From positions 1 through 27,756 of the IMG/VR virus record IMGVR_UViG_3300036715_000794: a stretch of DNA of 27,756 bases. The stretch is one strand, 5' to 3'. Origin of the DNA: a virus. Position 1 is the stretch's first letter, and every line of letters begins with the position of its first letter. The notes under the pieces were generated by a model. That model was not told the DNA's origin. It did not search any database and saw only the letters and a program-made list of their open reading frames with translations. Below, in pieces: positions 5,499 through 27,407 of the stretch. The position numbers were made by a program, and so were the translations under genes.

Positions 5499-7704
5499 CC
5501 GGTCGTATCTGCATCGCTTTAGCCAGCTCATCCCGAAAGGTGCTGGGCATGTAATTACCTTCGATGACTTCTTCCTACAGTCTGAACTGGAAAGCAAGGC
5601 CGAAGGGTTCGATGCTATTGTAACTACCAACTGGAAGGTGGCCTCTGTCGCTTTTGGCATCAAGTTCAAGGCGCCAGATACCAACGGCCAGGGCGCAACC
5701 CTTGACGACTATGCTGGCTCTATTACCAAGCTACCGCGGTCGGGCAAGGAAGTGCTGGTGCTTAACCCCATGCAGCACCTGGTGAGCACCGACACTGGCA
5801 TGTTTCTTTTCCAACGCTATCTTAGCAAGTTGCTCGACAAGGATCGCTGGTTCAAACAGACGGCCTTTACTTGGCAGGTAGTTGACAAGTCAGCCGACTA
5901 TGCCCTGGCGCTGGACTACCTAAAAGCATCCAAGTACATCGCAGTTGACATTGAGACTGGCGACGGCCACAAGATCAATTGCATTGGCTTCTGCGGCTTC
6001 CAGCTAAAGGATAGCTCATGGGAAAGTAGAGCCTTTGTCCTGCCATTGACTGACCATCTAGCTATTTCCTGGATGCGGGAATTGTGCATGTTGCCGGTTC
6101 CCAAGGTGTTCCAAAATGGCATGTTCGACGTTACCCATCTGCTAACCTGGCGCACCCCTGTTAGCCATTGGTACTGGGATACTCTCGGTCTGTTCCATAG
6201 CTGGTATTCCGAGCTGCCCCGCCGCCTTGACTTCATTACCAGCTTCCTGCTGCGTGACGTAGCATTTTGGAAAGATGAAGGCAAGACTGGCAACCTTGAG
6301 GACTACTACCGCTACAATGCGAGGGACTGCTGGGCCACTGGCAACGCCTTCCTAGCTTGGTTTGCTGAAGCACCAGACTGGGCACTTAGGAACTACAAGA
6401 TAAAGTTTCCTGAAGTTTTCCCTTGCGTGCAGTGCGGCCTTGAAGGGATAGCAGTTGACACCACTGCCAGGGAAGCAATGCGCAAAGAGCAGGAAGCTAT
6501 CTTGGACAAGGAGCTAGCCAGCCTTCGGAAGATGCTTGCCCAGCCTAACTTCAACCCCAACTCGCCGAAGCAAGTGCTGGCACTGCTCCACATGCTAGGA
6601 GCTAAGGCTGCTACCAATGCGGACTCCAAAGCCATTGCCAAGGCAGCAGCCATGCACCCACTCAACGCATTTCTGCTTGACAAGGTGTTGGCTTACCGGG
6701 AAGCTAGCAAACTGCTTGGCACCTACGTTAACGCACCACTCTACAAAGGCAGGTTGCTATACTCCATCAACCCATTCGGGACGGAGACTGGCCGGATGGC
6801 TAGTAAGAAAAGCCACCTATACTTCATGAAGGGTTCGGTGTTCACCAGCTACGGTACGCAAATCCAGAACATGCCACCGTATGCGAAGAAGATGCTGAAG
6901 GCTGATCCCGGATGGCTACTCTGCGAGATCGACAAAAAGAGTAGCGAATCCTACTGCACGGCGGCTCTTAGCAGGGATGAGAAGTTGTGGGATGTTGTCC
7001 ACAATGCTCCCGACTTCCACCGAGCCAATGCCAGCTTGTTCTTCGGGTTGCCCCCGGAAGAAGTTAGCAAAGAGCTACGGCAGCTTAGTAAGCGAGTCAA
7101 CCACGGCGCCAACTACAACATGGGCGAAGCCGTCCTAGTTGAAACAATGGGAGAAGCGAATGTCTGGAAAGCAAAAGCTCTGCTACTTGCTACGTACTCC
7201 AAGCGGACAGACCCAGAAGCCAAAGAACTATTGGCCAAATTGGCAGTATGTACCACGCCAAAAAGTATTGCGGGATTCTTGCTCGACCGCTTCAACGCAG
7301 CCTACCCAAGAATCAAAGGGCGCTGGTACGGCGAGATTGTTGCAGAAGTCACCAGCACCCACATGCTTACCAACCCAAGCGGATGGACTCGGTACTGTTT
7401 CGGCGATCCCAAAAACGACAAGCGTGCGTTGAACGCCTACGTAGCGCATGGGCCGCAGCACCTTTCCGTACAGCTACTAAACATTGGCTTCAGGAAAATC
7501 TTTGAGGAGTTGCAAGATGCTAGCTGCTTCCGCCTCAAAGCCCAGATTCATGACTCGGTATTCTTCCAATACAAAGAAGGCCGGGAGGATTTGGTATGGG
7601 AAGCAGAGAAAAGGTTGCGAACCCCGATCACTATCCACGGCAAAGAGTTAGTAATCCCCAACGACGCCAGCTTTGGCAAATCTTTTTGGAGTGAACTAAA
7701 ATGA
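5467..7704 (+). CDS. DNA polymerase, family A, with 3'-5' exonuclease
   Basis: This is the replicative phage DNA polymerase of the Pol I/T7 type (745 aa). The proofreading domain has Exo I VDIETG (Asp161, Glu163), Exo II QNGMFD (Asn217, Asp221) and Exo III YRYNARD (Tyr283, Asp287). The polymerase domain has TETGRMAS (440-446), motif A EIDKKSSES (Asp489, Glu494), motif B RQLSKRVNHGANY (Arg538 to Tyr550) and motif C QIHDSVFF (His695, Asp696). Two things are odd. The usual HDE of motif C is HDS, and about 150 residues of unassigned sequence precede the exonuclease domain. The ATG at 5467 has only a weak ribosome binding site and overlaps the small membrane-protein gene, so translation may be coupled. 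It acts with the SSB and helicase of this operon. Confidence 0.93.
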   Translation: MRLLICATKDDRSYLHRFSQLIPKGAGHVITFDDFFLQSELESKAEGFDAIVTTNWKVASVAFGIKFKAPDTNGQGATLDDYAGSITKLPRSGKEVLVLNPMQHLVSTDTGMFLFQRYLSKLLDKDRWFKQTAFTWQVVDKSADYALALDYLKASKYIAVDIETGDGHKINCIGFCGFQLKDSSWESRAFVLPLTDHLAISWMRELCMLPVPKVFQNGMFDVTHLLTWRTPVSHWYWDTLGLFHSWYSELPRRLDFITSFLLRDVAFWKDEGKTGNLEDYYRYNARDCWATGNAFLAWFAEAPDWALRNYKIKFPEVFPCVQCGLEGIAVDTTAREAMRKEQEAILDKELASLRKMLAQPNFNPNSPKQVLALLHMLGAKAATNADSKAIAKAAAMHPLNAFLLDKVLAYREASKLLGTYVNAPLYKGRLLYSINPFGTETGRMASKKSHLYFMKGSVFTSYGTQIQNMPPYAKKMLKADPGWLLCEIDKKSSESYCTAALSRDEKLWDVVHNAPDFHRANASLFFGLPPEEVSKELRQLSKRVNHGANYNMGEAVLVETMGEANVWKAKALLLATYSKRTDPEAKELLAKLAVCTTPKSIAGFLLDRFNAAYPRIKGRWYGEIVAEVTSTHMLTNPSGWTRYCFGDPKNDKRALNAYVAHGPQHLSVQLLNIGFRKIFEELQDASCFRLKAQIHDSVFFQYKEGREDLVWEAEKRLRTPITIHGKELVIPNDASFGKSFWSELK

Positions 7705-8267
7705 AACCAATTGTTCTGGTAGGCAACCAGCTCAAAGAAATAGCACCAGGGCAGCGGCTCGCCCCAGAGTTTGCACCGCCATATGCCCTGGCTGCTAAAT
7801 TGACAGCTACTGTAACTGTAGCTAATACCAACACCAGCGTATTGTCGCTGTCTATCCCAGCCAACACTTTGCAAGTAGGGGATGTTATCGAAGTGTACGG
7901 CTACGGGCGCTTCAACTCCAACGCCACCGCTAGTACCGATAAGCTGTCGGTTACTCTTGGCACTGGCTCCGGTGTTTCTAATCCGATAGTGACCACCACT
8001 AGCTACGGCAATGCTGCTACTGCCAGAACAAACCTGCCAGTGATGTTATCTGGTATGTTGGTTGTGCGAGCTGTTGGCACCAATGCTTCCATCATGGGTG
8101 AGATAATGCAGCAGCGGCCTATCAATGCCACCAACGTACCAGGCGCCACTGCCGCAACCATGTCCTTCAATTCGACGGTAGACAACCTGGTCAGCTTGAA
8201 TTACTTGTCGGGTGTCTCGTCTGCTTCCATATCATTTGAGACTGCTGTTATTAAACTCTGGAGATAG
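7701..8267 (+). CDS. Beta-rich, virion-like protein of unknown role
   Basis: This 188-aa protein starts in a 4-nt ATGA overlap with the polymerase stop, so it is translationally coupled to it. It is rich in Thr, Ser, Asn, Ala, Val and Gly with short alternating strands (LTATVTVANTNTSVLSLSIP, then GDVIEVYGYGRFN, later LPVMLSGMLVVRAVGTNASI). The IPANTLQVGDVIEV segment resembles beta-sandwich or jelly-roll domains seen in phage decoration, spike and fibre proteins. It has no enzyme motif, signal peptide or membrane segment. A structural-type protein inside a replication operon is unexpected: it may be a transferred gene, a decoration protein made early, or a non-virion beta protein. Confidence 0.7.
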   Translation: MKPIVLVGNQLKEIAPGQRLAPEFAPPYALAAKLTATVTVANTNTSVLSLSIPANTLQVGDVIEVYGYGRFNSNATASTDKLSVTLGTGSGVSNPIVTTTSYGNAATARTNLPVMLSGMLVVRAVGTNASIMGEIMQQRPINATNVPGATAATMSFNSTVDNLVSLNYLSGVSSASISFETAVIKLWR

Positions 8268-8270
8268 GTC

Positions 8271-8846
8271 ATGGATGAAATTACCTTCAACCACATGATG
8301 GTTGACATAGAAACTCTTGGTACCGCAATGGATGCTACGGTTATCGCCATTGGTGTAGCCCTGTTCAACCCAGAAGCAGTAGCAATCGGTCCTCAATTTT
8401 GCTATCTTCCAGCTTTGGAATGTCAGGGAGGTACAGTTAGCCCTGATACCCTACACTGGTGGTTAAAAACCAATCAAGGACTGTTGGGTAAATACATAGA
8501 GCAATCTCCAGAGGTAGGAACTCCGTTTGATTGGAGAGATATCAGCGTGAATTTGGCCAACTTGATTTATGGCTACGAAGTTGATACAATATGGGCCAAT
8601 GGCATTGACTTCGACATTCCCATCTTGTCAGCAGCTTTCGAGCGTACAAAGGTTGACAACCCGCTAGAGACTTTCAACTACAAGCAGCGCAGGGATATGC
8701 GCCAGTGGAAATTGGCAGCATCGCTTGCTGGGTGGCTAGAGCCGGAGCGCCCGAAGGAACTTGTAGCACATGACGCCCTGGCGGATGCTGTCTGGCAATG
8801 CCGTGTAGTTTGTAACTTGTGGCAATTCTTAGCAAATAGGAGGTGA
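8271..8846 (+). CDS. DEDD 3'-5' exonuclease (Rv2179c / Exo VIII type)
   Basis: This 191-aa exonuclease is of the RNase H-fold DEDD superfamily. Visible motifs are VDIETLG (Asp12, Glu14), WANGIDFDI (Asp115) and AHDALADA (His167, Asp172), the DEDDh pattern. The HWWL segment (62-65) is typical of the Rv2179c-like/phage Exo VIII-like group. Family members degrade RNA or DNA ends. Here it could process recombination or replication intermediates or degrade RNA; the substrate cannot be read from sequence. It starts 4 nt after the previous stop with GGAGATAGG upstream. The polymerase already has its own proofreading domain, so this is a second, separate exonuclease. Confidence 0.88.
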   Translation: MDEITFNHMMVDIETLGTAMDATVIAIGVALFNPEAVAIGPQFCYLPALECQGGTVSPDTLHWWLKTNQGLLGKYIEQSPEVGTPFDWRDISVNLANLIYGYEVDTIWANGIDFDIPILSAAFERTKVDNPLETFNYKQRRDMRQWKLAASLAGWLEPERPKELVAHDALADAVWQCRVVCNLWQFLANRR

Positions 8847-8847
8847 T
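8838..8847 (+). promoter_or_regulatory. Full-length Shine-Dalgarno site
   Basis: AGGAGGTGAT, the complete 10-nt complement of the usual 16S rRNA 3' end, directly precedes the ATG at 8848 and overlaps the exonuclease stop codon. It is the strongest ribosome binding site seen in the window and fixes the start of the gene at 8848. Confidence 0.8.
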
Positions 8848-9066
8848 ATGGCGCAACTTGAAGTGCGAAGATACAACGGCTCGACTTTCTACAAGCTGGA
8901 AGGTGACGATTACCAACTAGCACTCAAGTGGAAAGCAATTGATTGTGGATGTGCAGCTTATGCCAGTGCCAGAACAGCCCTGCGGCCAGCGATACTGGAA
9001 ATGGTTGGCAGGCTAACACCCACTCAACCAAACCCAACCGAGGAGAGAATTAGGTTCATAGCATGA
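8848..9066 (+). CDS. Hypothetical protein (72 aa)
   Basis: This is a small protein of unknown function preceded by a perfect Shine-Dalgarno site, so it is probably well translated. It begins with a strand-rich segment (AQLEVRRYNGSTFYKLEGDDY) and has two close cysteines (DCGCAAYASA). A helical part and a Pro/Thr-rich tail (RLTPTQPNPTEER) follow. No family is recognised. It overlaps the next gene by 4 nt. The strong RBS suggests a protein needed in quantity, perhaps a small regulator or inhibitor; that is a guess from expression signals only. Confidence 0.72.
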   Translation: MAQLEVRRYNGSTFYKLEGDDYQLALKWKAIDCGCAAYASARTALRPAILEMVGRLTPTQPNPTEERIRFIA

Positions 9067-9257
9067 AAGTGTACATCATCGCCGGCCTAGATAAAGACGG
9101 CCACATTGACACCGCTGGCGGTTTTGCCAGCAAAAGCGACGCCTGGCATTTCTTCCTAGAAAATGATCTTGCAAGGAAGATGCCAGAGGCAGTCATACTT
9201 CCCGTTGAAATAAAGGAACCAAGCAATGAAACTCCCGAAGCAAATCGACAAATGTGA
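9063..9257 (+). CDS. Hypothetical protein (64 aa)
   Basis: This is a small protein of unknown function in a 4-nt overlap with the previous gene. The sequence (KVYIIAGLDKDGHIDTAGGFASKSDAWHFF) suggests a strand, turn, strand, helix fold. The C-terminus is Glu/Pro-rich and overlaps the next gene by 32 nt in another frame. It has no membrane segment and no catalytic motif. The nearest Shine-Dalgarno-like element (GAGGAG) is about 17 nt upstream, so translation probably depends on coupling. Confidence 0.65.
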   Translation: MKVYIIAGLDKDGHIDTAGGFASKSDAWHFFLENDLARKMPEAVILPVEIKEPSNETPEANRQM

Positions 9258-9495
9258 CCACCCGGAGAGCCGCTGGCTGCGGCTGTACAACCTGCTAGCC
9301 ATCGACTTGAAGGAAGGAGTTGATACCTGCCAGTGCTGCGTGTTTTGGCGGGGCTTTGCCTTTGCAGTAGCTTTCTTCGCTGCACCGACCATTGCCTTGC
9401 TACTAGGTTATCCCCTGGCAGGCCTCACCATCTTCACCTTGCTTACTACAGTCTGCGCTGTGGTAACAACCTACTACGGAGACCCACTCAAATGA
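9226..9495 (+). CDS. Two-TM membrane protein with Cys cluster (89 aa)
   Basis: This is a predicted inner-membrane protein of unknown function with AAGGA upstream. The cytosolic-looking N-terminal part carries Cys10-Asp-His12 and Cys35-Gln-Cys37-Cys38, a possible metal site. Two hydrophobic segments follow (about residues 43-61 and 62-82), then a short tail. The size and two helices would fit a holin, but it sits in the replication operon and a separate holin-like gene is in the late operon. A membrane-remodelling, superinfection-exclusion or host-takeover role is equally possible. It overlaps both neighbours, by 32 nt on the left and 4 nt on the right. Confidence 0.7.
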   Translation: MKLPKQIDKCDHPESRWLRLYNLLAIDLKEGVDTCQCCVFWRGFAFAVAFFAAPTIALLLGYPLAGLTIFTLLTTVCAVVTTYYGDPLK

Positions 9496-19163: not shown

Positions 19164-19428
19164 AGGAAGTTCCCCGCTGCTGTTGCAACTCGACGATGGC
19201 CTGCGTATTGTTGGCCTGCTGCGCTTTGAGCACTGCTACATCAGTAATTACCTGAGCCAGCAAAACTTGGGAACTCTTTAGTTCCGAAAGCTGAGCTCGT
19301 ACATGCTCCAATTGATCCAGCGTCTTTTGGTTTTGCTGCGCAAAGTAGTAAATACTACCAAGCCCTTGGAAGAAGAAAGCAGCAATTGCTATGTAGCTTT
19401 TGATGGCATCAGGGGATTGTGGCGCCAT
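19153..19428 (-). CDS. TM plus coiled-coil protein, spanin- or holin-like
   Basis: This 91-aa late protein has one N-terminal membrane helix (about residues 11-30, SYIAIAAFFFQGLGSIYYFA), then an almost continuous coiled coil (34-85) rich in Gln, Leu and Ala. This is the shape of an inner-membrane spanin, or of small phage membrane proteins next to holins. The frame continues upstream without a stop. The ATG at 19428 is chosen because TGGAGA lies 7 nt ahead. It overlaps the DUF5675 gene by 20 nt. Its neighbours support a lysis role. No outer-membrane spanin partner with a lipobox was found, so the spanin label is tentative. Confidence 0.6.
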   Translation of the reverse strand: MAPQSPDAIKSYIAIAAFFFQGLGSIYYFAQQNQKTLDQLEHVRAQLSELKSSQVLLAQVITDVAVLKAQQANNTQAIVELQQQRGTSYGR

Positions 19429-19849
19429 TCTCGATCTCCAGTAGAAAAGGTTTTCGCGCGAGTGCGTTGTGGAATTTAGCAATAGCAAGCCGGGAGTTAA
19501 GTAACATGCGGCCATGCCCCATTGTTCCAACTGCCAAGCCAAGGGCTATACATCCCGCCAACTCCTGCTTATAGCCTTCACTAGCTAACCCACAGAAGTT
19601 GGCTACATGGATTCTGATCCCAGCCCGGCCGGGAACGTTGAGTAGGCTGTAGCCCCAACCGAGATGCTTGCTAAATGTCCATACGCACTTGTATGTACCA
19701 ATCGGAATGCAGCTATTTCCTCGGACGTTGTTCCTCCAAGGTAGCTCACCGGACCAGAGCTTTAACAACTGACTTCCAATTGGCAACACGAAGTTGCCAA
19801 AAGTACCGTCAGCGCCGGAGATAAGGCGTGTCAGATGGACGGTAAACAT
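19409..19849 (-). CDS. DUF5675 family protein
   Basis: This 146-aa protein matches DUF5675, a family common in phages and bacteria. It contains GTFGNFVLPIG near the start, GELPWRNNVRGNSCIPIGTY, then LLNVPGRAGIRIHVANF and a GCIALG segment. Conserved Cys, His and Arg residues in these blocks suggest an enzyme. In sequence shape the family resembles L,D-transpeptidase-type folds, but the function is not established here. Position beside membrane and holin-like genes makes a cell-wall role during lysis plausible. The only other wall-active domain visible is the virion SLT, so this is a candidate for the missing lysis enzyme. The start has AAAGGGTG upstream. Confidence 0.75.
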   Translation of the reverse strand: MFTVHLTRLISGADGTFGNFVLPIGSQLLKLWSGELPWRNNVRGNSCIPIGTYKCVWTFSKHLGWGYSLLNVPGRAGIRIHVANFCGLASEGYKQELAGCIALGLAVGTMGHGRMLLNSRLAIAKFHNALARKPFLLEIENGATIP

Positions 19850-19859
19850 CTAACACCCT

Positions 19860-20210
19860 TTACTTAGCCGGTGCTTGCGCAGCAGGTTGTGTAGCAGCTT
19901 TTGCGGCAGCCTGCGCAGCGGCCTTCAGTTCAGCAGCCTTGGCAGTAGTTTCGACGGCAGCTTTGTTTGCCGCAACCGCAGCAGCTCGGGCGCGGGCAGC
20001 CGCAGCTTCAGCCAACGCAGCCTTTTCAGCAACCGACAGCTCCACGACTTTGCCATCCCCCTCATACTTGTAATCGCGGCAGTTGTCTGCCGTGAAACCG
20101 TTGGGAATGTCAGTCACTTGGTGCAGCGAGTAGCCAGGTTCGGTAACGACCAAAGGCTTGTCACTTGCGCGGACGATGTTTCCGCTTTTGCTTCCAGAAA
20201 TAATCCACAT
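19860..20210 (-). CDS. Protein with Ala/Lys-rich C-terminal tail (116 aa)
   Basis: This late protein has two halves. Residues 1-55 (MWIISGSKSGNIVRASDKPLVVT and onward to NCRDYKYEGDG) look like a small beta-rich fold. Residues 60-116 are a long Ala-rich helix with Lys, Glu and Thr, ending in PAAQAPAK, reminiscent of histone-H1-like tails or extended virion linkers. The frame is open further upstream, but the ATG at 20210 with GAGAGG in front is the likely start. It could be a virion assembly or tail protein, or a DNA-binding protein. It follows a hairpin-containing gap after the oxygenase gene. Confidence 0.65.
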   Translation of the reverse strand: MWIISGSKSGNIVRASDKPLVVTEPGYSLHQVTDIPNGFTADNCRDYKYEGDGKVVELSVAEKAALAEAAAARARAAAVAANKAAVETTAKAAELKAAAQAAAKAATQPAAQAPAK

Positions 20211-20234
20211 GGGGAACCTCTCAATTGAAAGAAC

Positions 20235-20288
20235 GTTGGTACAAGCTACCAACAAGCTATTCTCCTATGGCTTCTATAGGCAGAAGCC
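20235..20288 (-). promoter_or_regulatory. Hairpins in the gap between oxygenase and Ala-rich genes
   Basis: The 98-nt gap 20211-20308 is the longest non-coding stretch in this part of the late operon. It holds a 7-bp stem with a 5-nt loop (GTTGGTA with TACCAAC, 20235-20253). It also holds two mutually exclusive stems: CCTAT with ATAGG (20264-20280) and GGCTTC with GAAGCC (20269-20288). Leftward of the first stem is GTTCTTTCAATT, too broken for a good terminator. No convincing promoter was seen. Confidence 0.4.
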
Positions 20289-20308: not shown

Positions 20309-20983
20309 CTATACGGCTTCATAGAAGTTAACAAGGCCGTAGCGAATCCCGCTGGTAATCTGCTTCACTTCATGCGTCCAGCTGTAGGTAGACGGGAACA
20401 GTACCAGTTCACCAGCTTTGGGCACGTATGTGAAGGGCTTGCCATCTTCACCGATGATGTTCGCAAACTCCAACTGGCCGCCCTCGAAATCGGTGCCGCA
20501 GTTGTTGAGATAGATGCACCCGGTATACCGGCGGCTGGAATTGACTTTGATCTTCCCATCGTGGATAGTGCAATTATCCGCGTGCGGAACAAAGAAGTCT
20601 CCAGGGCCGTTAGCAGTTACCAACCATTGCCGCCATTGCTTAACAGGCCGGGTATCCTTGTAGGTAGCTACGATAGCTGCCAACACAATGGAATCCAGCA
20701 TCTTGTCCAGCTCTTTGGCGGTATCAGGCACCAGGGCAGACAGTTCGATTATCTTACCTTGGCGCTTGTCCGAATCTTGGACCCATTTATCCCCGTTATA
20801 GTAGTTGACCGGGCGGAACTCCGCGCGGGCTGCGGCTTCGCATAAGTGTTTGCACAGTGTAGCATCCAGCACTTGCGAAATCCCCACCGGGGTTTCCGTG
20901 CCTGGCGCTAGTAGTTGCTTCGCTGGCTGCGCATCATTGGCTGCCAGAAAGTCAATGGCTGCTTGTGAAATTTGGTATTTCAT
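20309..20983 (-). CDS. 2OG-Fe(II) oxygenase, prolyl-4-hydroxylase-like
   Basis: This 224-aa enzyme is of the 2-oxoglutarate/Fe(II) dioxygenase superfamily. The iron triad is visible as HAD (His134, Asp136) and His204 in STYSWTHEV. Arg214 in SGIRYGLVNFY should bind 2-oxoglutarate. The block YTGCIYLNNCGTDFEGGQLEF (residues 153-173) is typical of the P4H alpha-subunit/PKHD group. Family members hydroxylate proline, other residues or nucleobases using O2 and 2-oxoglutarate; the substrate is not evident. The start has GAGGAA upstream. It lies 14 nt after the asparagine-synthase-like gene and appears to be the last enzyme of a co-expressed cassette. Virion proteins encoded upstream (Pro-rich or Gly/Asn/Asp-rich) are possible substrates; that is inference. 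Confidence 0.88.
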   Translation of the reverse strand: MKYQISQAAIDFLAANDAQPAKQLLAPGTETPVGISQVLDATLCKHLCEAAARAEFRPVNYYNGDKWVQDSDKRQGKIIELSALVPDTAKELDKMLDSIVLAAIVATYKDTRPVKQWRQWLVTANGPGDFFVPHADNCTIHDGKIKVNSSRRYTGCIYLNNCGTDFEGGQLEFANIIGEDGKPFTYVPKAGELVLFPSTYSWTHEVKQITSGIRYGLVNFYEAV

Positions 20984-20997
20984 TTCCAGTTCCTCGG

Positions 20998-21951
20998 TTA
21001 GTACACAAATCCATCTTTAGTAATCCAGCGCTTCCAGCCATAGTAGAGTTTACCCTGGCTGTAAACTTTTGGCTTGTTCTCTACGTAATTGGCATCCTTG
21101 GTAAAGGCAAAGATGTAATCACGTAGCTCTTGCTTGCTTTCCCTGTAGGTTGAGAATTTGTTGGAGAGTTGCCGCTGCATTGCCCACGCTGTCCAACTTG
21201 GGTGCGAAAACCAGGCAGTCTGCTTGTTGGCTTCAATCCGAACTAGAGTGTCCGCGCCCCGGTTGCTGCCATTGTAGTATGGACGCAGATTAGCATCTTG
21301 GAAAGCTAAGCAAAACTCCAACCACCATAGCCGCTGAAAAAGTGTGGTGGATGGAAAGGCAGCTTCCAAAGGTGCAGCTTCCTCTAGGAATCGGCGAACA
21401 GCTACTCCCCAACCTTGCTCTTCCCAACTGCCCTGATATTTCTCCGCCTGATAGTTGCCAAAGAGTTCGTCGGCCCACATCCCATCCACATGCAAGGTAT
21501 CAGGCTGCATGTATAGAGCTAGGTCACTCTTTACCTGCGGTTTACCTACGATGTATTTGTGGTAAAATTCCGGGTACTCATCAATGGAGTTTTGGTCAAG
21601 TACCCAAATCACATCGAGCTTAGGTGCTTCAGCTAGAATTGCGCAGGCGATAGCTGTACTATCCAAGCCACCACTCCACCAAAGGTAAACTGGCTTTCCC
21701 AAAGCAGCAATGGCAGTAGCTCTAGCAGCCATCAATTCAGGCAGCTTAGGTGCCGACACTCGCAACTCATCGCCGGCAATGTTGCACTCGGGGAAGATGT
21801 TTACTGCTAGGGGATTTAGGTGAAAGGCTGCTGGGTGCCTAGGAACTATGAAAGGCGTTTCTCCATCATACTTCTGCTTGATCTGGTGGTAGCCCGTTTG
21901 CACTACTGACGTATGTGCAGCGTAACCATTATGCCAGATGTACTTGCTCAT
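20998..21951 (-). CDS. Asparagine-synthase-like PP-loop ATPase, no glutaminase domain
   Basis: This 317-aa protein carries the synthetase half of asparagine synthases. It has the PP-loop YLWWSGGLDSTA (SGGLDS at 93-98) and DGMWADELFGNY (157-168), matching the (A/S)DE-(L/I)FGGY motif of AsnB and beta-lactam synthetases. The enzyme would activate a carboxylate as acyl-AMP and pass it to a nitrogen nucleophile. The N-terminal 85 residues are too short for, and lack the Cys2 of, the glutamine-hydrolysing domain. It must therefore use ammonia or another amine, or an amine on a partner molecule. It overlaps the upstream gene by ATGA and has AAGGGG before its start. It is one of two PP-loop proteins in this cassette. 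An amide-forming role on a protein or small molecule is inferred. Confidence 0.85.
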   Translation of the reverse strand: MSKYIWHNGYAAHTSVVQTGYHQIKQKYDGETPFIVPRHPAAFHLNPLAVNIFPECNIAGDELRVSAPKLPELMAARATAIAALGKPVYLWWSGGLDSTAIACAILAEAPKLDVIWVLDQNSIDEYPEFYHKYIVGKPQVKSDLALYMQPDTLHVDGMWADELFGNYQAEKYQGSWEEQGWGVAVRRFLEEAAPLEAAFPSTTLFQRLWWLEFCLAFQDANLRPYYNGSNRGADTLVRIEANKQTAWFSHPSWTAWAMQRQLSNKFSTYRESKQELRDYIFAFTKDANYVENKPKVYSQGKLYYGWKRWITKDGFVY

Positions 21952-22493
21952 AATGGATTCCCCTTAGCCATGAACTCCAGCAGAGTTTCATCTAACAGCT
22001 CGACTCTGGCGACAGTTTCCTTCGCTAGAAATTCTACTGGCACATTGTCATAGCAAGATGCTGCAATCCTGGAAAGCAACTGCTGCTCGGTATCGGTGGC
22101 GCCGCCAGATAGATACTTACGGGACAACCTGCCAAGGGCTTGCAGCTTTGCAATGCCGATGGACGTTGTAGGCAGCCCGAGTGCCGCCAAATCGAACAAC
22201 TGCTGCTTATACGCCACGATCTTATCATGCGCAGCCTTCCGCATAACCCTGGATTGATTTGCCTCTGCTGCGGAAGTTTTGTAAGTCTTTACGAGCTTAC
22301 CTTCTACGTAGCGATAGGAGCTAAAGGTGGCAGCAAAATTATCGGGCAGCTGACCATGGTAAGTCACCCTACGAAGTTGCTTGGGCTTAAGCTCTGGTAC
22401 TTGCGAAAGGATCGCAAAGTAGTCAGCATAGGTAGTCGCGTGCATCCAGCTGATTACTCTGCCGTCCCTATTGAGGAATAGAGTGTAACTCAT
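21948..22493 (-). CDS. Hypothetical protein within the enzyme cassette (181 aa)
   Basis: This is a protein of unknown function between the GNAT and asparagine-synthase-like genes, joined to both by 4-nt ATGA overlaps. The upstream frame is open, but the ATG at 22493 with GGAGCAACT in front is the clear start. Residues 1-75 look beta-rich (SYTLFLNRDGRVISWMH, then FSSYRYVEGKLVKTY). The rest is helical and Lys/Ala/Leu-rich. That architecture, a small beta head and helical body, resembles phage fibre-assembly or substrate-carrier proteins, but no family is recognised. Its tight coupling suggests it works with the flanking enzymes, perhaps as a scaffold, chaperone or substrate. Confidence 0.7.
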   Translation of the reverse strand: MSYTLFLNRDGRVISWMHATTYADYFAILSQVPELKPKQLRRVTYHGQLPDNFAATFSSYRYVEGKLVKTYKTSAAEANQSRVMRKAAHDKIVAYKQQLFDLAALGLPTTSIGIAKLQALGRLSRKYLSGGATDTEQQLLSRIAASCYDNVPVEFLAKETVARVELLDETLLEFMAKGNPL

Positions 22494-22918
22494 AGTTGCT
22501 CCTGCCCTCTGTACCATTTGGCTGCCCGTCTTGCGAAAGTAACCCTGCCAGTTTTATCGAACACCTTGTGGATTTTGCCATTGTCATCTACCGCGGAAGT
22601 GTAGACTACGATCACACCCCGGGATAGCAGGCGCTTCTCCACTTCATTGAACACTTGGGTAGCTATGCCTTTGCCTCTGTATGCAGGATCGGTATAAGCG
22701 AACTTGGTAAATGCACGACCCAACTCGTCAACACTGAATAGTTGGGCGCATACAATCTTGCCAGTTTCGCTATCCTTGGCATATACCACTTCGCTATGGT
22801 TGCCCCAATCCAGGCAGGGATGCGTGAGCTTTTCTTTGAGCATCTCGGCATAGCCGCAAAAGACGAAGGTGTAGGCAGGGGAGAACGCCAGTTGCTTTTC
22901 GTAGTGGTATGTAATCAT
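22490..22918 (-). CDS. GNAT-family N-acetyltransferase
   Basis: This 142-aa protein has the GNAT fold pattern: a beta region (HSEVVYAKDSETGKIVCAQLFSV), then FAYTDPAYRGKGIATQVFNEVEKRLL, with the acetyl-CoA pyrophosphate loop RGKGIA at residues 81-86, then VIVVYTSAVDDNG and a terminal strand/helix. It would transfer an acetyl (or other acyl) group from CoA to an amine; the acceptor is unknown. It starts 4 nt after the stop of the PP-loop gene with a poor ribosome binding site, so translation is probably coupled. It overlaps the next gene by ATGA. In this cassette it could cap an amine made or exposed by the PP-loop enzymes, an inference from order alone. Confidence 0.85.
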   Translation of the reverse strand: MITYHYEKQLAFSPAYTFVFCGYAEMLKEKLTHPCLDWGNHSEVVYAKDSETGKIVCAQLFSVDELGRAFTKFAYTDPAYRGKGIATQVFNEVEKRLLSRGVIVVYTSAVDDNGKIHKVFDKTGRVTFARRAAKWYRGQEQL

Positions 22919-22922
22919 GTTG

Positions 22923-23915
22923 TCAACTTGATTTCTGCAAGGGTTGCAATGGCACCGATGCTACACGACGCAGGGTTTGTTTTGAGGCAGCAGCAGCCCG
23001 AAGTTCCGGTAAGGTGAACCTAGCCTTACTGGCAACCAACCCGCGGCCAAGATCGCCTAGCACATTGCGGCCACCCATACCGCGCACGATTGCAGACTTC
23101 TCAACTACCTCGAAGCCAGTGTACTTAGGCGCTTGCACCAAAGCATCGCCCCAGGCATCGGTGTAGATAAGCGGTTTGGTGACATGCGTATACAAGCTGG
23201 TATTGTATCCCTGAGGGCTAGCTGCTGCAATGGCATTGACAGCCATTTCAGTCAGCTTTAGCAGCGGATGGTTCAACTGTGCCACAAGCAATTCCGGGCT
23301 GTACATATAGAAGCGCGTCACTGCTTCTTGCTGTCGGTTGATCTGGTATTGGACTACCGGGGTAGCACCAATGTTGAAGAACAGTTGGTTGGTGTCGGGG
23401 TCGAGCGCCGGCTTCATATCCCCAGCAGCCATGATGTAGCAGTGATCCGGGAAAAAATCTCCAAGAGTAGCTTGAAGCAACTGCCGCGGGCTGCCTACGC
23501 CTATCTCCCCGCACAGTGCTACAGATTTTTCTTGGTAAAATTTCTCCACATCGGTATGAACCTCTAACAGCTCGATACCATGCTTCTTGGCAAACTGCTT
23601 GGCTACCACGTAATCATGCTGGTTCTTGCCAACTACGTAGTGGCAGAACATCGCTTTGACCGGGATTCCAGCTTCCTTAAAGGACAGCCAAGCTGCCTGA
23701 CTATCCAGCCCACCAGAAAAGCCTAGGAGCAGCGGCTTATTGGTGGAACTGGCTATGTCGCGGGCAGCTTGGATGCACTCGTCTCGCCAACTACCAACCA
23801 CGCCTAACTTGCTGAAATCTAGCTGCGCAAAGAAACGCTGGCCGATTCCATACTTGGAGAAGGGAGTTTCCCCCCAACCCCAAGTGAAGTAGTTATGTTT
23901 GGTGTAAGCGAACAT
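22923..23915 (-). CDS. PP-loop ATPase (N-type pyrophosphatase family)
   Basis: This 330-aa protein has the PP-loop PLLLGFSGGLDSQAAW (SGGLDS at 67-72) and a following strand/helix pattern typical of N-type ATP pyrophosphatases such as asparagine synthase, GMP synthase, QueC and tRNA-modifying enzymes. The segment IMAAGDMKPALDP after the core may shape the substrate pocket. Roughly 60 residues precede the P-loop; no glutaminase domain is present. Such enzymes adenylate a carbonyl or carboxyl group for amidation or thiolation. It starts 2 nt after the stop of the Gly-rich repeat protein with a weak ribosome binding site. It differs clearly from the other PP-loop protein in this cassette, so the two probably catalyse distinct steps or act on different substrates. 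Confidence 0.82.
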   Translation of the reverse strand: MFAYTKHNYFTWGWGETPFSKYGIGQRFFAQLDFSKLGVVGSWRDECIQAARDIASSTNKPLLLGFSGGLDSQAAWLSFKEAGIPVKAMFCHYVVGKNQHDYVVAKQFAKKHGIELLEVHTDVEKFYQEKSVALCGEIGVGSPRQLLQATLGDFFPDHCYIMAAGDMKPALDPDTNQLFFNIGATPVVQYQINRQQEAVTRFYMYSPELLVAQLNHPLLKLTEMAVNAIAAASPQGYNTSLYTHVTKPLIYTDAWGDALVQAPKYTGFEVVEKSAIVRGMGGRNVLGDLGRGLVASKARFTLPELRAAAASKQTLRRVASVPLQPLQKSS

Positions 23916-23917
23916 GA

Positions 23918-24676
23918 TTAGTCAGAATCCCCATCGTCACCGGGATCGTCACCGGGATCATCCGAGTTATCGGTATCATCGGTGTCGTCGGTATTATTGG
24001 ACGGCGAGCCTCCAGTACCATCACCACCCCCAGTAGTATTGCTACCATTGTTGGTACCAGTACCGTTGTTGGTACCAGTACCCGGATTGGTGCCAGTACC
24101 ACCGCCGGTATGACCGCCAGTGCCATTGTTGCCACCGGTGCCATTGTTGCCAGTGTTACCGCCAGTATTGCCACCGGTGTTACCGCCAGTACCGCCAGTG
24201 TGGCCACCAGTGCCGGTGTTGCCCCCAGTACCACCAGTAGTGCCACCCGTGTTTGTACCACCGGTTCCTCCGGTACCACCGGTATTGGTTCCACCAGTTC
24301 CACCAGTGCCACCTGTCCCGGTGCCCCCAGAAGTGTTACCACCGGTGCCACCATCGGTAGTACCACCAGTGCCAGTACCGCCATTGGTACCACCACTGGT
24401 GCCATTGCCACCAGTACCAGTGCCACCCGTGCCAGTGCCTCCAGTAGTACCACCCGTGTTGGTACCTCCATTGCCCCCGGTAGAACCTCCGGTGTTGGTG
24501 CCACCATTGCCATTGTTGCCACCTTGAGAGTAGCTACCAGTGGTGAGAGGAACCCATTGGACACCCGTCCAATACCAAAGCACTCGGGCTGCTAGATCGA
24601 CGTAGAACGGTTGGCCGGTAACGCCCGGCGGCGTAGTAGGAGTACCGACCCCACTACAAGGATTGCAACAAGCCAT
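23918..24676 (-). CDS. Gly/Thr/Asn-rich repeat protein with Asp-rich tail
   Basis: This 252-aa late protein has three parts. Residues 1-46 hold three cysteines (MACCNPC) and a small domain (GQPFYVDLAARVLWYWTGVQWVPL) shared with the C-terminus of the next upstream gene product. Residues 51-217 are low-complexity repeats built from GGTGG, NTGG and TGTGG units with occasional His. Residues 227-252 are Asp-rich with Asn, Thr and Pro. The repeat suggests a flexible or polyproline-II-like stalk. The acidic tail could bind Ca2+. It is probably a virion surface or fibre component. It is not a canonical collagen (strict Gly-X-Y is absent). The ATG is preceded by AAAGGAAAAA. It lies directly upstream of the modification-enzyme cassette. 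Confidence 0.75.
   Translation of the reverse strand: MACCNPCSGVGTPTTPPGVTGQPFYVDLAARVLWYWTGVQWVPLTTGSYSQGGNNGNGGTNTGGSTGGNGGTNTGGTTGGTGTGGTGTGGNGTSGGTNGGTGTGGTTDGGTGGNTSGGTGTGGTGGTGGTNTGGTGGTGGTNTGGTTGGTGGNTGTGGHTGGTGGNTGGNTGGNTGNNGTGGNNGTGGHTGGGTGTNPGTGTNNGTGTNNGSNTTGGGDGTGGSPSNNTDDTDDTDNSDDPGDDPGDDGDSD
24026..24526 (-). repeat. Low-complexity repeat region in the Gly-rich gene
   Basis: About 500 nt of short, imperfect repeats, built on the + strand from CCACC, GCCAG and GGT-type units, encode the Gly/Thr/Asn-rich stalk. All frames on the + strand stay largely open here because of the biased composition. Such arrays change length easily by slippage or recombination. Confidence 0.85.
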
Positions 24677-24691
24677 GATCTTTTTCCTTTG

Positions 24692-25045
24692 TTAGAGTTG
24701 AACCCACTCACCGCCTGCGTAAACCCACAGCTTCTTGGCTGCGCGGTCTAGGTAGAACGGGAGGTATCCTTGGGAAGGCTCACCAGTTGGAGCACCAACA
24801 TCTGATGCTACCTTGAAACAAGGCAGAAGCGGACGCAAGTCCAGCAATGCATCATTTACGCGCAGAAGCAGCTCGCACTCGTCAAGCTGCAAGATGGTAG
24901 GCGGAAGGAAGCACGGATCAATGTGATAGCCCTGTGGCATATCTTGAACCATGCCATCAATCCGCACTAGCGGGCGAATGAAGCGCGGCTGAGGTGTTCC
25001 ATACTGGATGTCCTTCCACACTGGCACACATTTTGCATTCAGCAT
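24692..25045 (-). CDS. Small modular virion-like protein (117 aa)
   Basis: This late protein combines two modules seen in its neighbours. Residues 20-48 (TPQPRFIRPLVRIDGMVQDMP, then GYHIDPCFLPP) resemble the start of the protein encoded at 27000-27407. The last 25 residues (GYLPFYLDRAAKKLWVYAG, then GEWVQL) resemble residues 20-44 of the Gly-rich repeat protein encoded just downstream. The middle is helical and Leu-rich. No catalytic motif is seen. Module sharing and location suggest a tail, fibre or baseplate adaptor in which the N-terminal part docks to the virion. The start has AAGGAG upstream. Confidence 0.7.
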   Translation of the reverse strand: MLNAKCVPVWKDIQYGTPQPRFIRPLVRIDGMVQDMPQGYHIDPCFLPPTILQLDECELLLRVNDALLDLRPLLPCFKVASDVGAPTGEPSQGYLPFYLDRAAKKLWVYAGGEWVQL

Positions 25046-25069
25046 GGAAGTATCTCCTTAGCTAGGTAG

Positions 25070-25687
25070 TTAGTCCCAATACGGGATGCGTTTGGAAACA
25101 CCACCGATGGTGATGATAGCCCACCCAGCTGGGTCCCCCAATAGCATTGTGGCTTGGCCACCGGTGTTGGTAACGATCGCATTGGGGATTGTTTCATTGG
25201 TGATCGCAGCTGGGCCTGGATTGGTAGGCAGGTCAAGCGGCGGAGGCGGTGGTACGAAAAGTCCAGAGGCGCGTGCGACGAGTTGGTTGTCGGTATCACC
25301 AGCAACGAAAACATCGACTTTGAGTGGATCATCGGGAGTGCCCATACCAGAGAGGCCAGCGGTGTTACTGCTAACAACCTTAGTAGGTGCTATATCCCAA
25401 AGCGACACATCTCTCGTGCTACCATCTGTCATGGTGAAGCGCAGCACATAGTTGGCGCTGTTGTATTCGATGTTGACAATACCAGGACCGCCAACGAGGG
25501 AACTGAGGTTGACAGTAGAGACGTTGCCATCAACAAAAGTGACCGACAAATTACCGGTGGTGGGATCAAAAGATACACTGCCACCTGCAAGGTCTAGGAT
25601 ACTTTTGTCTAGCTTCGCGCCTTCAGCAAGTACAGTGTGTTTAGTGCCAGATTCATCAAGCACCACGATGTGAGTTTGAGTTGTCAT
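25070..25687 (-). CDS. Beta-rich virion-like protein, paralogue A (205 aa)
   Basis: This late protein is clearly paralogous to the 206-aa protein encoded just upstream. Both begin with an IV(V/I)-x-D strand, then H-x-(V/I)-LAEG, KLD(K/R)SILDLA and (S/Y)(F/Y)DP-TGNLS(V/L)TF-DG. Both end with LLGDPAGWA(I/T)I and an IPYW motif. The repeated FDPTTGNLSVTFVDG-type strands resemble fibre or adhesin beta repeats. A proline run (VPPPPPLDLP, about residues 143-152) joins the two halves and would be a natural hinge, or a hydroxylation site for the downstream 2OG oxygenase (speculative). It has AAGGAG upstream of its ATG. It probably forms part of the tail or fibre complex. Confidence 0.75.
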   Translation of the reverse strand: MTTQTHIVVLDESGTKHTVLAEGAKLDKSILDLAGGSVSFDPTTGNLSVTFVDGNVSTVNLSSLVGGPGIVNIEYNSANYVLRFTMTDGSTRDVSLWDIAPTKVVSSNTAGLSGMGTPDDPLKVDVFVAGDTDNQLVARASGLFVPPPPPLDLPTNPGPAAITNETIPNAIVTNTGGQATMLLGDPAGWAIITIGGVSKRIPYWD

Positions 25688-25724
25688 TTGTTGAAAACTC
25701 CTTCAATGAAGGGTGTAGTCTCAT

Positions 25725-25752
25725 ATACGGGCAGTGTAGGAACTGCCCGTAT
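25725..25752. promoter_or_regulatory. Strong intergenic hairpin between two paralogues
   Basis: A perfect 11-bp stem (ATACGGGCAGT with ACTGCCCGTAT) has a 6-nt loop and sits between the two tandem paralogues. On the + strand it runs into TTTTC. On the transcribed - strand it is followed by ATGAGAC, without a T tract. It would therefore terminate antisense rather than late mRNA, or serve as an mRNA processing/stability element. Confidence 0.6.
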
Positions 25753-25773
25753 TTTCTGTCAACCTGCTTCTAT

Positions 25774-26394
25774 TTAGGAAGCCGGATGAGTCCAGTACGG
25801 AATCACCACTTGGTTGCCTTCCACATAGATGGTGGCCCAGCCAGCCGGGTCACCAAGCAGCACGTCAGCGGGGCCACCAGAGTTGGAGATGCTCCGGGTG
25901 GTAACGGAGCCGTTGTCGGCAGCGATAAGCGGCTGAGTTTGTGCCAGGTCGAGAGGCGGCACAAAGAGGCCATCATCCGACGCAGAAAGCTGGTTGCCAC
26001 CACTGGCGGAAACCTTGACGTCAACCTTGATCGGGCTGCCAACGGTGCCATCGCCCGAGGTAGTGGCGGTAGCAGTGTTGGCAACCTGAACAGGGATCAG
26101 GTCAGAAAGCGGCACCGTGTAAGTGCTGCCATCCGACATGGTGAGCGTCAGAATGTGCGAAGCCGGATCGTAGCTGCTGCCAGCGAGGAACTTGTCAGCT
26201 GCCAACGTGCCTAGGTTGACAACCACACTTGCGCCATCCGAGAAGGTCAGCGACAGGTTGCCAGTGCCGGGGTCATAGGAAGCATTGCCGACTGCGAGGT
26301 CGAGGATGCTCCGATCGAGCTTGTCGCCCTCTGCGAGAATGACATGCTTGTGGTTTGCTGCGTCAAAGATGACGATTTGGGACTTGGTTGCCAT
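25774..26394 (-). CDS. Beta-rich virion-like protein, paralogue B (206 aa)
   Basis: This is the tandem paralogue of the 205-aa protein downstream, with the same order of modules: N-terminal strand and AEGDKLDRSILDLA helix, a YDPGTGNLSLTFSDG strand pair, a second strand pair (YDPASHILTLTMSDGSTYTVPLSDL), a Pro-containing hinge (VPPLDLAQ) and the C-terminal LLGDPAGWATIYVEGNQ with IPYW. It extends four to five residues past the shared ending. The two copies are diverged enough at protein level to be an old duplication. It has AAAGGAG before its ATG. Likely a tail or fibre protein; the receptor or partner is unknown. Confidence 0.75.
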   Translation of the reverse strand: MATKSQIVIFDAANHKHVILAEGDKLDRSILDLAVGNASYDPGTGNLSLTFSDGASVVVNLGTLAADKFLAGSSYDPASHILTLTMSDGSTYTVPLSDLIPVQVANTATATTSGDGTVGSPIKVDVKVSASGGNQLSASDDGLFVPPLDLAQTQPLIAADNGSVTTRSISNSGGPADVLLGDPAGWATIYVEGNQVVIPYWTHPAS

Positions 26395-26417
26395 TTTGGC
26401 TCTCCTTTCGGTGGGTG

Positions 26418-26467
26418 AAAAAACGATGGAATGATGCGCTAATTGGAAGTTGTCATTAGAACATCAT
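26418..26467 (-). terminator. Possible attenuator or terminator in late operon gap
   Basis: The 120-nt gap 26395-26514 holds a 13-position stem with one mismatch (ATGATGCGCTAAT at 26431-26443 with ATTAGAACATCAT at 26455-26467) and an 11-nt loop. Read leftward, a run of six T begins 7 nt beyond the stem. The spacing is long for an efficient terminator, so partial attenuation is more likely. No promoter was recognised in the gap. Confidence 0.5.
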
Positions 26468-26514
26468 CTGCAATGGAAGTCAGGGCAGACTTAGAAGCTT
26501 TGGAAGGACGGTTC

Positions 26515-26988
26515 TTAGGTGGCGGAAATCTCCTGTCTGATATAAGAGACAGACCCAACAACATGATACTCTCCAGGTGTAGCACTAACGAGCTGGATAG
26601 GCTGATCGAAGTGGGCATAATACGGAAGAGGCACTGCCGGCTGGTTTGGATCGCCGGAGGCAGTCAAATTGACATCAGCCAGATCATACCATCTACCCTG
26701 GTCATCCTGAATCGCTGACGGCACAGTAAGATACAAGCCATTGCTTGTTACCGTGTAGTACATCCAGTAGTAAAAGACGATCTGGCAATTGCCGATAACA
26801 GGCCGAGTGTTCTCGTAGTTATCTGAACTTACCCAAGAAACCGCAGGTGCTAACTGGGGAATCAACTCCGGGGCGAGGGAGATGTAATTTGAGGCAGCCG
26901 CCGGCAAGAACTGCGGGTCGATGATATCCCCTGGTTCTAGCTCCATGTGTTCGTTGTTGACATGCTTGACAGGTACCACGAATGCCAT
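26515..26988 (-). CDS. Beta-rich virion-like protein (157 aa)
   Basis: This is a late protein of unknown function. The ATG at 26988 is favoured because GAGGGG lies just ahead; a GTG at 27003 overlapping the upstream stop is the alternative. The N-terminus (MELEPGDIIDPQFLPAAASNYI) loosely resembles the IDPCFLPP docking-type segment of the 117-aa protein encoded downstream. The remainder is Tyr/Pro/Val-rich with short strands (QIVFYYWMYYTVTSNGLYLTVPS, then GEYHVVGSVSYI), as in tail-tip or fibre proteins. No enzyme motif is visible. It is probably a member of the same set of small tail or fibre components. Confidence 0.68.
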   Translation of the reverse strand: MAFVVPVKHVNNEHMELEPGDIIDPQFLPAAASNYISLAPELIPQLAPAVSWVSSDNYENTRPVIGNCQIVFYYWMYYTVTSNGLYLTVPSAIQDDQGRWYDLADVNLTASGDPNQPAVPLPYYAHFDQPIQLVSATPGEYHVVGSVSYIRQEISAT

Positions 26989-26999
26989 TTGGTTACCCC

Positions 27000-27407
27000 T
27001 CACTTGTACAACGGAATGTTGTAAGCAACTCCGCCTACCATGACCTTACCCCAAGCATCGGGCTTGGCCAGCAAGTAGTCATCAGTACCAACTGCTGCGG
27101 TGGGGATAGCAGCGTCGGTTATGACTGCCGGTTCATTGCCAGCTGTCACTTGGGAGATGTCAACAGTGTTGCCACCAGAGATTGACAGGTTGTTAGTACT
27201 CTGGTCAAAGCTGAGAGTTTGATACCCAGAGCTATTCACAGCTCTGGCAATTGCATCCATATCAAGGTAGCAATTATCCAGCTTCCAGTTGAATGGAGCA
27301 TCTTGAGTTTGTGCGTTGATACGCACCAGGGGTTTGAAGTACCGTGGGTTAGGAACCCCGCGCATGGGCGGGTCTACAAGCACGAACTTCGCATCGCAGG
27401 CAGCCAT
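27000..27407 (-). CDS. Small modular virion-like protein (135 aa)
   Basis: This late protein joins modules found in other neighbours. Its N-terminal part (NPRYFKPLVRINAQTQD, then WKLDNCYLD) matches the start of the 117-aa protein encoded at 24692-25045. Its middle (LSFDQSTNNLSISGGNTVDIS) resembles the FDPTTGNLS strand repeats. Its ending (DAWGKVMVGGVAYNIPLYK) matches the DPAGWA and IPYW endings of the two roughly 205-residue paralogues. This suggests assembly of short virion proteins by module shuffling. AAGGAG precedes its ATG. No catalytic motif is seen; a tail or fibre adaptor role is inferred. Confidence 0.7.
   Translation of the reverse strand: MAACDAKFVLVDPPMRGVPNPRYFKPLVRINAQTQDAPFNWKLDNCYLDMDAIARAVNSSGYQTLSFDQSTNNLSISGGNTVDISQVTAGNEPAVITDAAIPTAAVGTDDYLLAKPDAWGKVMVGGVAYNIPLYK

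Follow-up and report, generated by a model that had tools for sequence, protein, structure and literature searches.

A translationally coupled viral cassette around a glutaminase-less AsnB-like synthetase: a possible pathway for chemical decoration of the phage tail

The window considered here, a stretch of 27,756 nucleotides (nt) covering positions 1 to 27,756 of IMG/VR virus record IMGVR_UViG_3300036715_000794, carries five consecutive minus-strand genes (20309-23915) that are tentatively interpreted as an ATP-driven tailoring cassette. Acyl activation and amide formation, together with acyltransferase (GNAT) and 2-oxoglutarate (2OG) oxygenase steps, would build or attach a decoration, and the product might end on a tail-fibre protein. 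The cassette probably builds or attaches a chemical decoration, and perhaps does so on the virus's own tail. Its synthetase core belongs to a large and widespread viral family without counterpart in Pfam or PHROGs. Mechanical calling of open reading frames (ORFs) confirmed all five genes, which are given here in transcription order:

22923-23915, minus strand: PP-loop ATPase of 330 residues ("PPB" family) with the motif SGGLDS, first
22490-22918, minus strand: GNAT acyltransferase of 142 residues (PF00583, E 1.3e-7), second
21948-22493, minus strand: gene 3, 181 residues (a longer reading starts at 22517), in the slot held by a "partner" gene in other phages, third
20998-21951, minus strand: glutaminase-less AsnB-like synthetase of 317 residues, assigned by a family hidden Markov model (HMM; E 1.9e-49) and an AlphaFold2 (AF2) fold, fourth
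20309-20983, minus strand: 2OG-Fe(II) oxygenase of 224 residues (PF13640, E 8.5e-13) with H134-A-D136, H204 and a following R, fifth

In the same order, the junctions consist of a 4-nt gap (PP-loop/GNAT), two ATGA overlaps and a 14-nt gap (synthetase/2OG). The overlap between the GNAT gene and gene 3 holds with the gene 3 start at the inner ATG (22493), just upstream of which lies an AGGAG ribosome-binding site. Pfam cut-offs are passed by the 2OG oxygenase (49.5 bits against 27) and the GNAT (32.4 bits against 20.7) and by neither PP-loop protein in the Pfam scan; gene 3 has no Pfam or PHROG match. ORFs, junctions, domain scans and flanking genes thus bear out a preliminary description of this DNA, which had recognized five coupled genes of these identities between fibre-like and lysis/ejection genes. 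No description of a pathway with this set was found in open PMC papers, in keeping with the same account. The oxygenase and the GNAT belong to the same superfamilies as known viral 2OG-Fe(II) oxygenases and phage GNATs (PHROG 61, 1249 and 3810) but here their genes stand in a late operon, coupled to that of an AsnB-like synthetase.

Sequence profiles place the synthetase below the thresholds of known families: PF00733 gives 14.6 bits (cut-off 21; E 0.027) and TIGR01536 11.9 bits (cut-off 267). The predicted structure (AF2; pLDDT 71, pTM 0.74) is nevertheless closest to asparagine synthetase (human and E. coli), TsnB9, and beta-lactam and carbapenam synthetase in their synthetase domains (Z 12.0-10.3), the next structural class following at Z 9.1. 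Scores reach Z 11-12 against 9b6c, 8sue and 1ct9 (VIA-align) and Z 10.9 and 10.8 against beta-lactam and carbapenam synthetase. The protein carries SGGLDS at residue 93 and ADELFGNY at residue 160, and S93, G94, G95, D97, S98, D161 and K273 are among the columns that are invariant in 19 diverse homologues. An N-terminal Cys glutaminase domain is not present—the ORF starts with MSK and the alignment to AsnB begins past that domain. On the predicted model, the synthetase is thus an AsnB-class fold without glutaminase, as had been proposed along with carboxyl activation. It shares the fold, the PP-loop and the DELFG loop with asparagine synthetase B and ASNS (PF00733) but differs from them in lacking the glutaminase, in its sub-threshold Pfam score and in its gene context. 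Beta-lactam and carbapenam synthetases, which form amides in an ATP-dependent manner without using glutamine, keep a remnant of the N-terminal domain. They share the AsnB-derived fold with the viral protein, but no beta-lactam pathway genes were recognized in the window.

The motif WWSGGxDST occurs in 84 viral contigs retrieved by a scan; all of the 80 that were inspected encode homologues of the window synthetase (best E 7e-17). Conversely, a profile built from viral homologues without the window recovers it at E 2.2e-39, and another such match gave 1.9e-49. A broader scan found at least 447 relatives on viral contigs, and the family occurs at 16 loci in bacterial genomes; none of the 30 members scanned has a good match in Pfam or PHROGs. 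Eight-residue patterns gave no matches in single-protein viral scans. Among cultured phages, no significant relatives were obtained by DNA search or by tblastn with both PP-loop proteins as queries; only a synthetase family member as query reached Pseudomonas phage Cygsa01 (L358:4688-6837; contigs and loci are numbered here with the prefix L). In this phage, the gene for a Gly-rich tail-type protein is followed at once by two tandem family members (profile E 1e-37 and 9e-32). Both genes (XAI71054.1 and XAI71056.1) are annotated as the tRNA 2-thiouridylase MnmA, which is probably wrong. Unlike the window, Cygsa01 has no recognizable GNAT, 2OG or gene 3 beside the pair. On another virus contig, five AsnB-like synthetase genes stand in tandem next to T4-type structural genes (L131:1038-6912).

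The PP-loop protein encoded first in the cassette is of the same superfamily as the synthetase without being a close duplicate. Its match to the synthetase profile is confined to the PP-loop region; treatment of both proteins as one family was therefore rejected and 22923-23915 was placed in a family of its own, which counts 112 viral relatives. Its best relatives are the second PP-loop genes of other phages (phmmer E 1.5e-11 for L256:1228-2166 and 5e-9 for L188). The match to QueC (PF06508, E 1.7e-4) scores 21.6 bits against a cut-off of 22 in the Pfam scan and 22.9 bits in another search, is limited to residues 64-128 and lacks the QueC-type Cys cluster, the four cysteines being scattered (residues 47, 91, 135 and 159). 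Synthetase and second PP-loop families occur together in several unrelated phages; the PP-loop gene directly precedes a synthetase gene in L268, L312, L318 and L352 and follows one in L213 and L266.

Recurrence of these neighbours was measured by within-locus permutation, counting genes within two genes of the synthetase at 103 non-redundant loci. The partner family lies near the synthetase at 26 loci (9.0 expected), cupins at 14 (6.0), desaturases at 6 (1.8), the second PP-loop family at 6 (2.4) and GNATs at 4 (0.8). These figures lean upward because some of the seeds for the profiles (cupins, one GNAT, desaturases) had initially come to notice beside the synthetase. In 36 of 46 cases, the gene directly preceding the synthetase gene is a partner gene of about 220 codons. 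The partner protein yields an AF2 model (pLDDT 88) that matches generic helical bundles in the PDB, with no RiPP (ribosomally synthesized and post-translationally modified peptide) leader-binding or lasso protein among the listed matches, and unnamed phage proteins plus weak DUF4376 matches in a viral library. GNAT homologues adjoin the synthetase in L256, L259, L282 and L253, directly preceding it in L282. In L256 and L259, summed up as one lineage, the order GNAT-partner-synthetase, with overlapping junctions in both, equals the window's order GNAT-[181 residues]-synthetase. L256 offers the best parallel overall, running from a carrier protein and a second PP-loop gene through a desaturase-like gene to GNAT, partner and synthetase. 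L225 presents a Gly-rich fibre gene, partner, synthetase, 2OG oxygenase (PF13640, E 6.5e-8) and Gly-rich protein in succession, and in L201 and the Polynucleobacter prophage L200 the synthetase lies between tail-type (fibre) and lysis-type genes. The immediate successors of the second PP-loop gene in L256, L279 and L280 looked GNAT-like by eye and have no PF00583 match. The window's polymerase has no match in 11 synthetase-bearing contigs, which fits other phage lineages, but these contigs are fragments. By this polymerase, the window itself is related to PaP2/PaMx-type podoviruses (Fredfastierviridae, Jamesmcgillvirus), Polaromonas phage Tiera, Aeromonas phage P5, EBPR podovirus 3 and more than 400 environmental contigs.

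On one side of the cassette lie fibre-like paralogues and a Gly/Thr-rich protein, on the other DUF5675 and ejection-type genes. The following neighbours bear on its interpretation:

23918-24676, minus strand: Gly/Thr/Asn-rich fibre-like protein of 252 residues, 2 nt from the cassette, candidate substrate
19860-20255, minus strand: Ala-rich protein of 131 residues, 53 nt downstream of the cassette, without a PHROG hit or a Pfam hit above the cut-off
19409-19849, minus strand: DUF5675 protein (PF18925, E 4.5e-21), end of the insertion slot

The candidate substrate contains 96 Gly, 61 Thr, 29 Asn, 16 Asp, no Lys and no Glu, has an Asp-rich end and aligns through its N-terminal region with 24692-25045. 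The region 24692-27407 encodes a series of short fibre-like proteins, among them clear paralogues (25070-25687 and 25774-26394 share 48% identity); the series is multiplied in the relative L097 as well. A 12-kb contig of metagenome 3300035182 (L006) encodes proteins identical to those of the window's left part and reaches about 2.2 kb past its left end.

Fold and motifs suggest the following chemistry. The synthetase would adenylate a carboxylate, which an amine would then attack to give an amide or a bond of the peptide type, the reaction known from beta-lactam, carbapenam and asparagine synthetase; the second PP-loop enzyme would probably employ the same chemistry. Because the synthetase has no glutaminase, the amine would be supplied by the substrate itself or by free ammonia. 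The GNAT would place an acyl group on an amine, and the 2OG oxygenase would hydroxylate the product. Most tentatively, the product may be placed or loaded on a tail-fibre protein of the same operon, with gene 3 possibly acting as a substrate adaptor. From its position, 23918-24676 is a possible target. If it is the target, the change would be carried by Asp carboxylates or by hydroxyl or amide side chains, since it is devoid of Lys and Glu; acetylation, previously listed among the changes to look for on this Gly-rich protein, is not supported at lysines.

Several observations weigh against a decorating role at the tail. It is the location of the genes that makes a tail protein of the virion a plausible target, and its modification is putative. 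Gly-rich genes are not found near the synthetase above the within-locus permutation, and in T4-like contigs the family sits between neck and terminase genes, possibly a mere insertion hot spot. Gene 3 agrees with the partner family in slot and ATGA coupling, yet neither HMM nor HHalign yields a match, which leaves it at most a putative partner homologue. The 2OG oxygenase, regarded earlier as part of the set, lies near the synthetase at chance level (2 loci observed, 2.1 expected). In L097, the DUF5675 gene follows the fibre paralogues almost directly and the cassette is absent (tblastn). Finally, acyl carrier proteins (PF00550; L253:9265-9501, L256:1013-1234 and L280:6749-6961) stand by synthetase, GNAT or PP-loop genes of relatives with fatty-acid desaturases nearby, a setting that suits a diffusible or lipid-like product.

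The last point leads to the strongest competing explanation, according to which the product of the cassette is a diffusible small molecule or a lipid-like conjugate such as an acyl amide, acting on the host or on competitors. In addition to carrier proteins and enriched desaturases, radical SAM proteins adjoin some relatives of the synthetase or the second PP-loop protein, and homologues in the Patescibacterial locus L185 stand beside YcaO cyclodehydratase and nitroreductase genes. By analogy with these neighbours, a peptide- or acyl-derived product is thinkable for the window too. A search of the window, however, found no acyl carrier protein, no ligase or exporter was recognized, and the location within a late fibre-lysis operon is late for host metabolism to matter, which leaves this explanation rather unlikely. 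The same neighbourhoods recall lasso-peptide cyclases and other RiPP clusters: an AsnB-like enzyme accompanies a small partner gene, and relatives adjoin YcaO, nitroreductase or radical SAM genes. Unlike such clusters, the window has no recognizable precursor peptide, leader peptidase or leader-binding domain, although short genes could escape recognition. The Patescibacterial locus L185:1899-8864 comprises YcaO cyclodehydratase, nitroreductase, partner and AsnB-like synthetase, and L188:2706-9761, apparently similar to it by sequence, adds a second PP-loop gene; both are possibly unrecorded peptide-modifying clusters. Transporter-type genes resembling substrate-binding and permease components lie beside synthetase genes in two virus contigs (L158:4429-7290 and L213:11217-12122).

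A second explanation, that accessory genes with no mutual relation have collected at a spot tolerant of insertions between the fibre and lysis genes, draws on the close kin. Besides L097, the cousin podovirus L089 has a lone 2OG gene (8581-9282) at the same operon position with the rest of the cassette absent, and QueC and 2OG profiles run over 37 related records found nothing beyond it. Hence the cassette counts as an accessory element inserted where the fibre genes give way to the lysis genes. The preliminary description had named single, scattered occurrence of these genes in related phages as an argument against a joint function. This pattern does hold among close kin, in which the cassette is not conserved, but not among unrelated phages, in which synthetase with partner, with GNAT, with second PP-loop gene, the trio GNAT-partner-synthetase and, once, synthetase with 2OG recur as neighbours. 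While the chance-level adjacency of the oxygenase favours a haphazard assembly, the tight translational coupling renders it improbable, as does the finding that GNAT, second PP-loop and partner genes accompany the synthetase in unrelated phages more often than expected by chance. The lone 2OG gene of L089 directly follows a protein with VGSPP repeats, and the two (7488-9282) form a candidate proline-hydroxylation pair.

Alteration of the host envelope—for instance, amidation of peptidoglycan or of a uronic-acid sugar that blocks superinfection or receptor recapture—would suit a late operon beside fibre genes, and AsnB-class enzymes do amidate bacterial envelope precursors. The cassette, however, has no glycosyltransferase, sugar-nucleotide enzyme or glutaminase domain, and this option is highly improbable. 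Modification of tRNA or nucleotides by QueC-, MnmA- or TilS-like PP-loop chemistry, suggested by weak QueC- and MnmA-type profile matches and by the Cygsa01 annotation, is hardly credible given the missing Cys cluster, the AsnB-class fold, MnmA profiles far below their cut-offs and the late structural location. DNA modification was rejected, since no hypermodification or methyltransferase genes, including the thymidylate hydroxymethylase and DNA methyltransferase already reported missing, were recognized among the proteins scanned, which represent part of the window's genes.

The tail-decorating interpretation can be extended, somewhat doubtfully, to a general viral system, not described so far, whose AsnB-like synthetases and their upstream partners decorate tail-fibre or tip proteins with amide-linked, acylated or hydroxylated groups and thereby tune host recognition across many phage lineages. 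Either way, a synthetase family carried by at least 447 viral contigs is without a Pfam or PHROGs model, and the one cultured representative found goes under the name MnmA. Should virions be decorated by these enzymes, the chemistry of phage tails would constitute a new layer of host-range control; if the product is diffusible, a common phage biosynthetic module would have been overlooked by current auxiliary-gene surveys. The availability of cultured Cygsa01 makes either reading testable.

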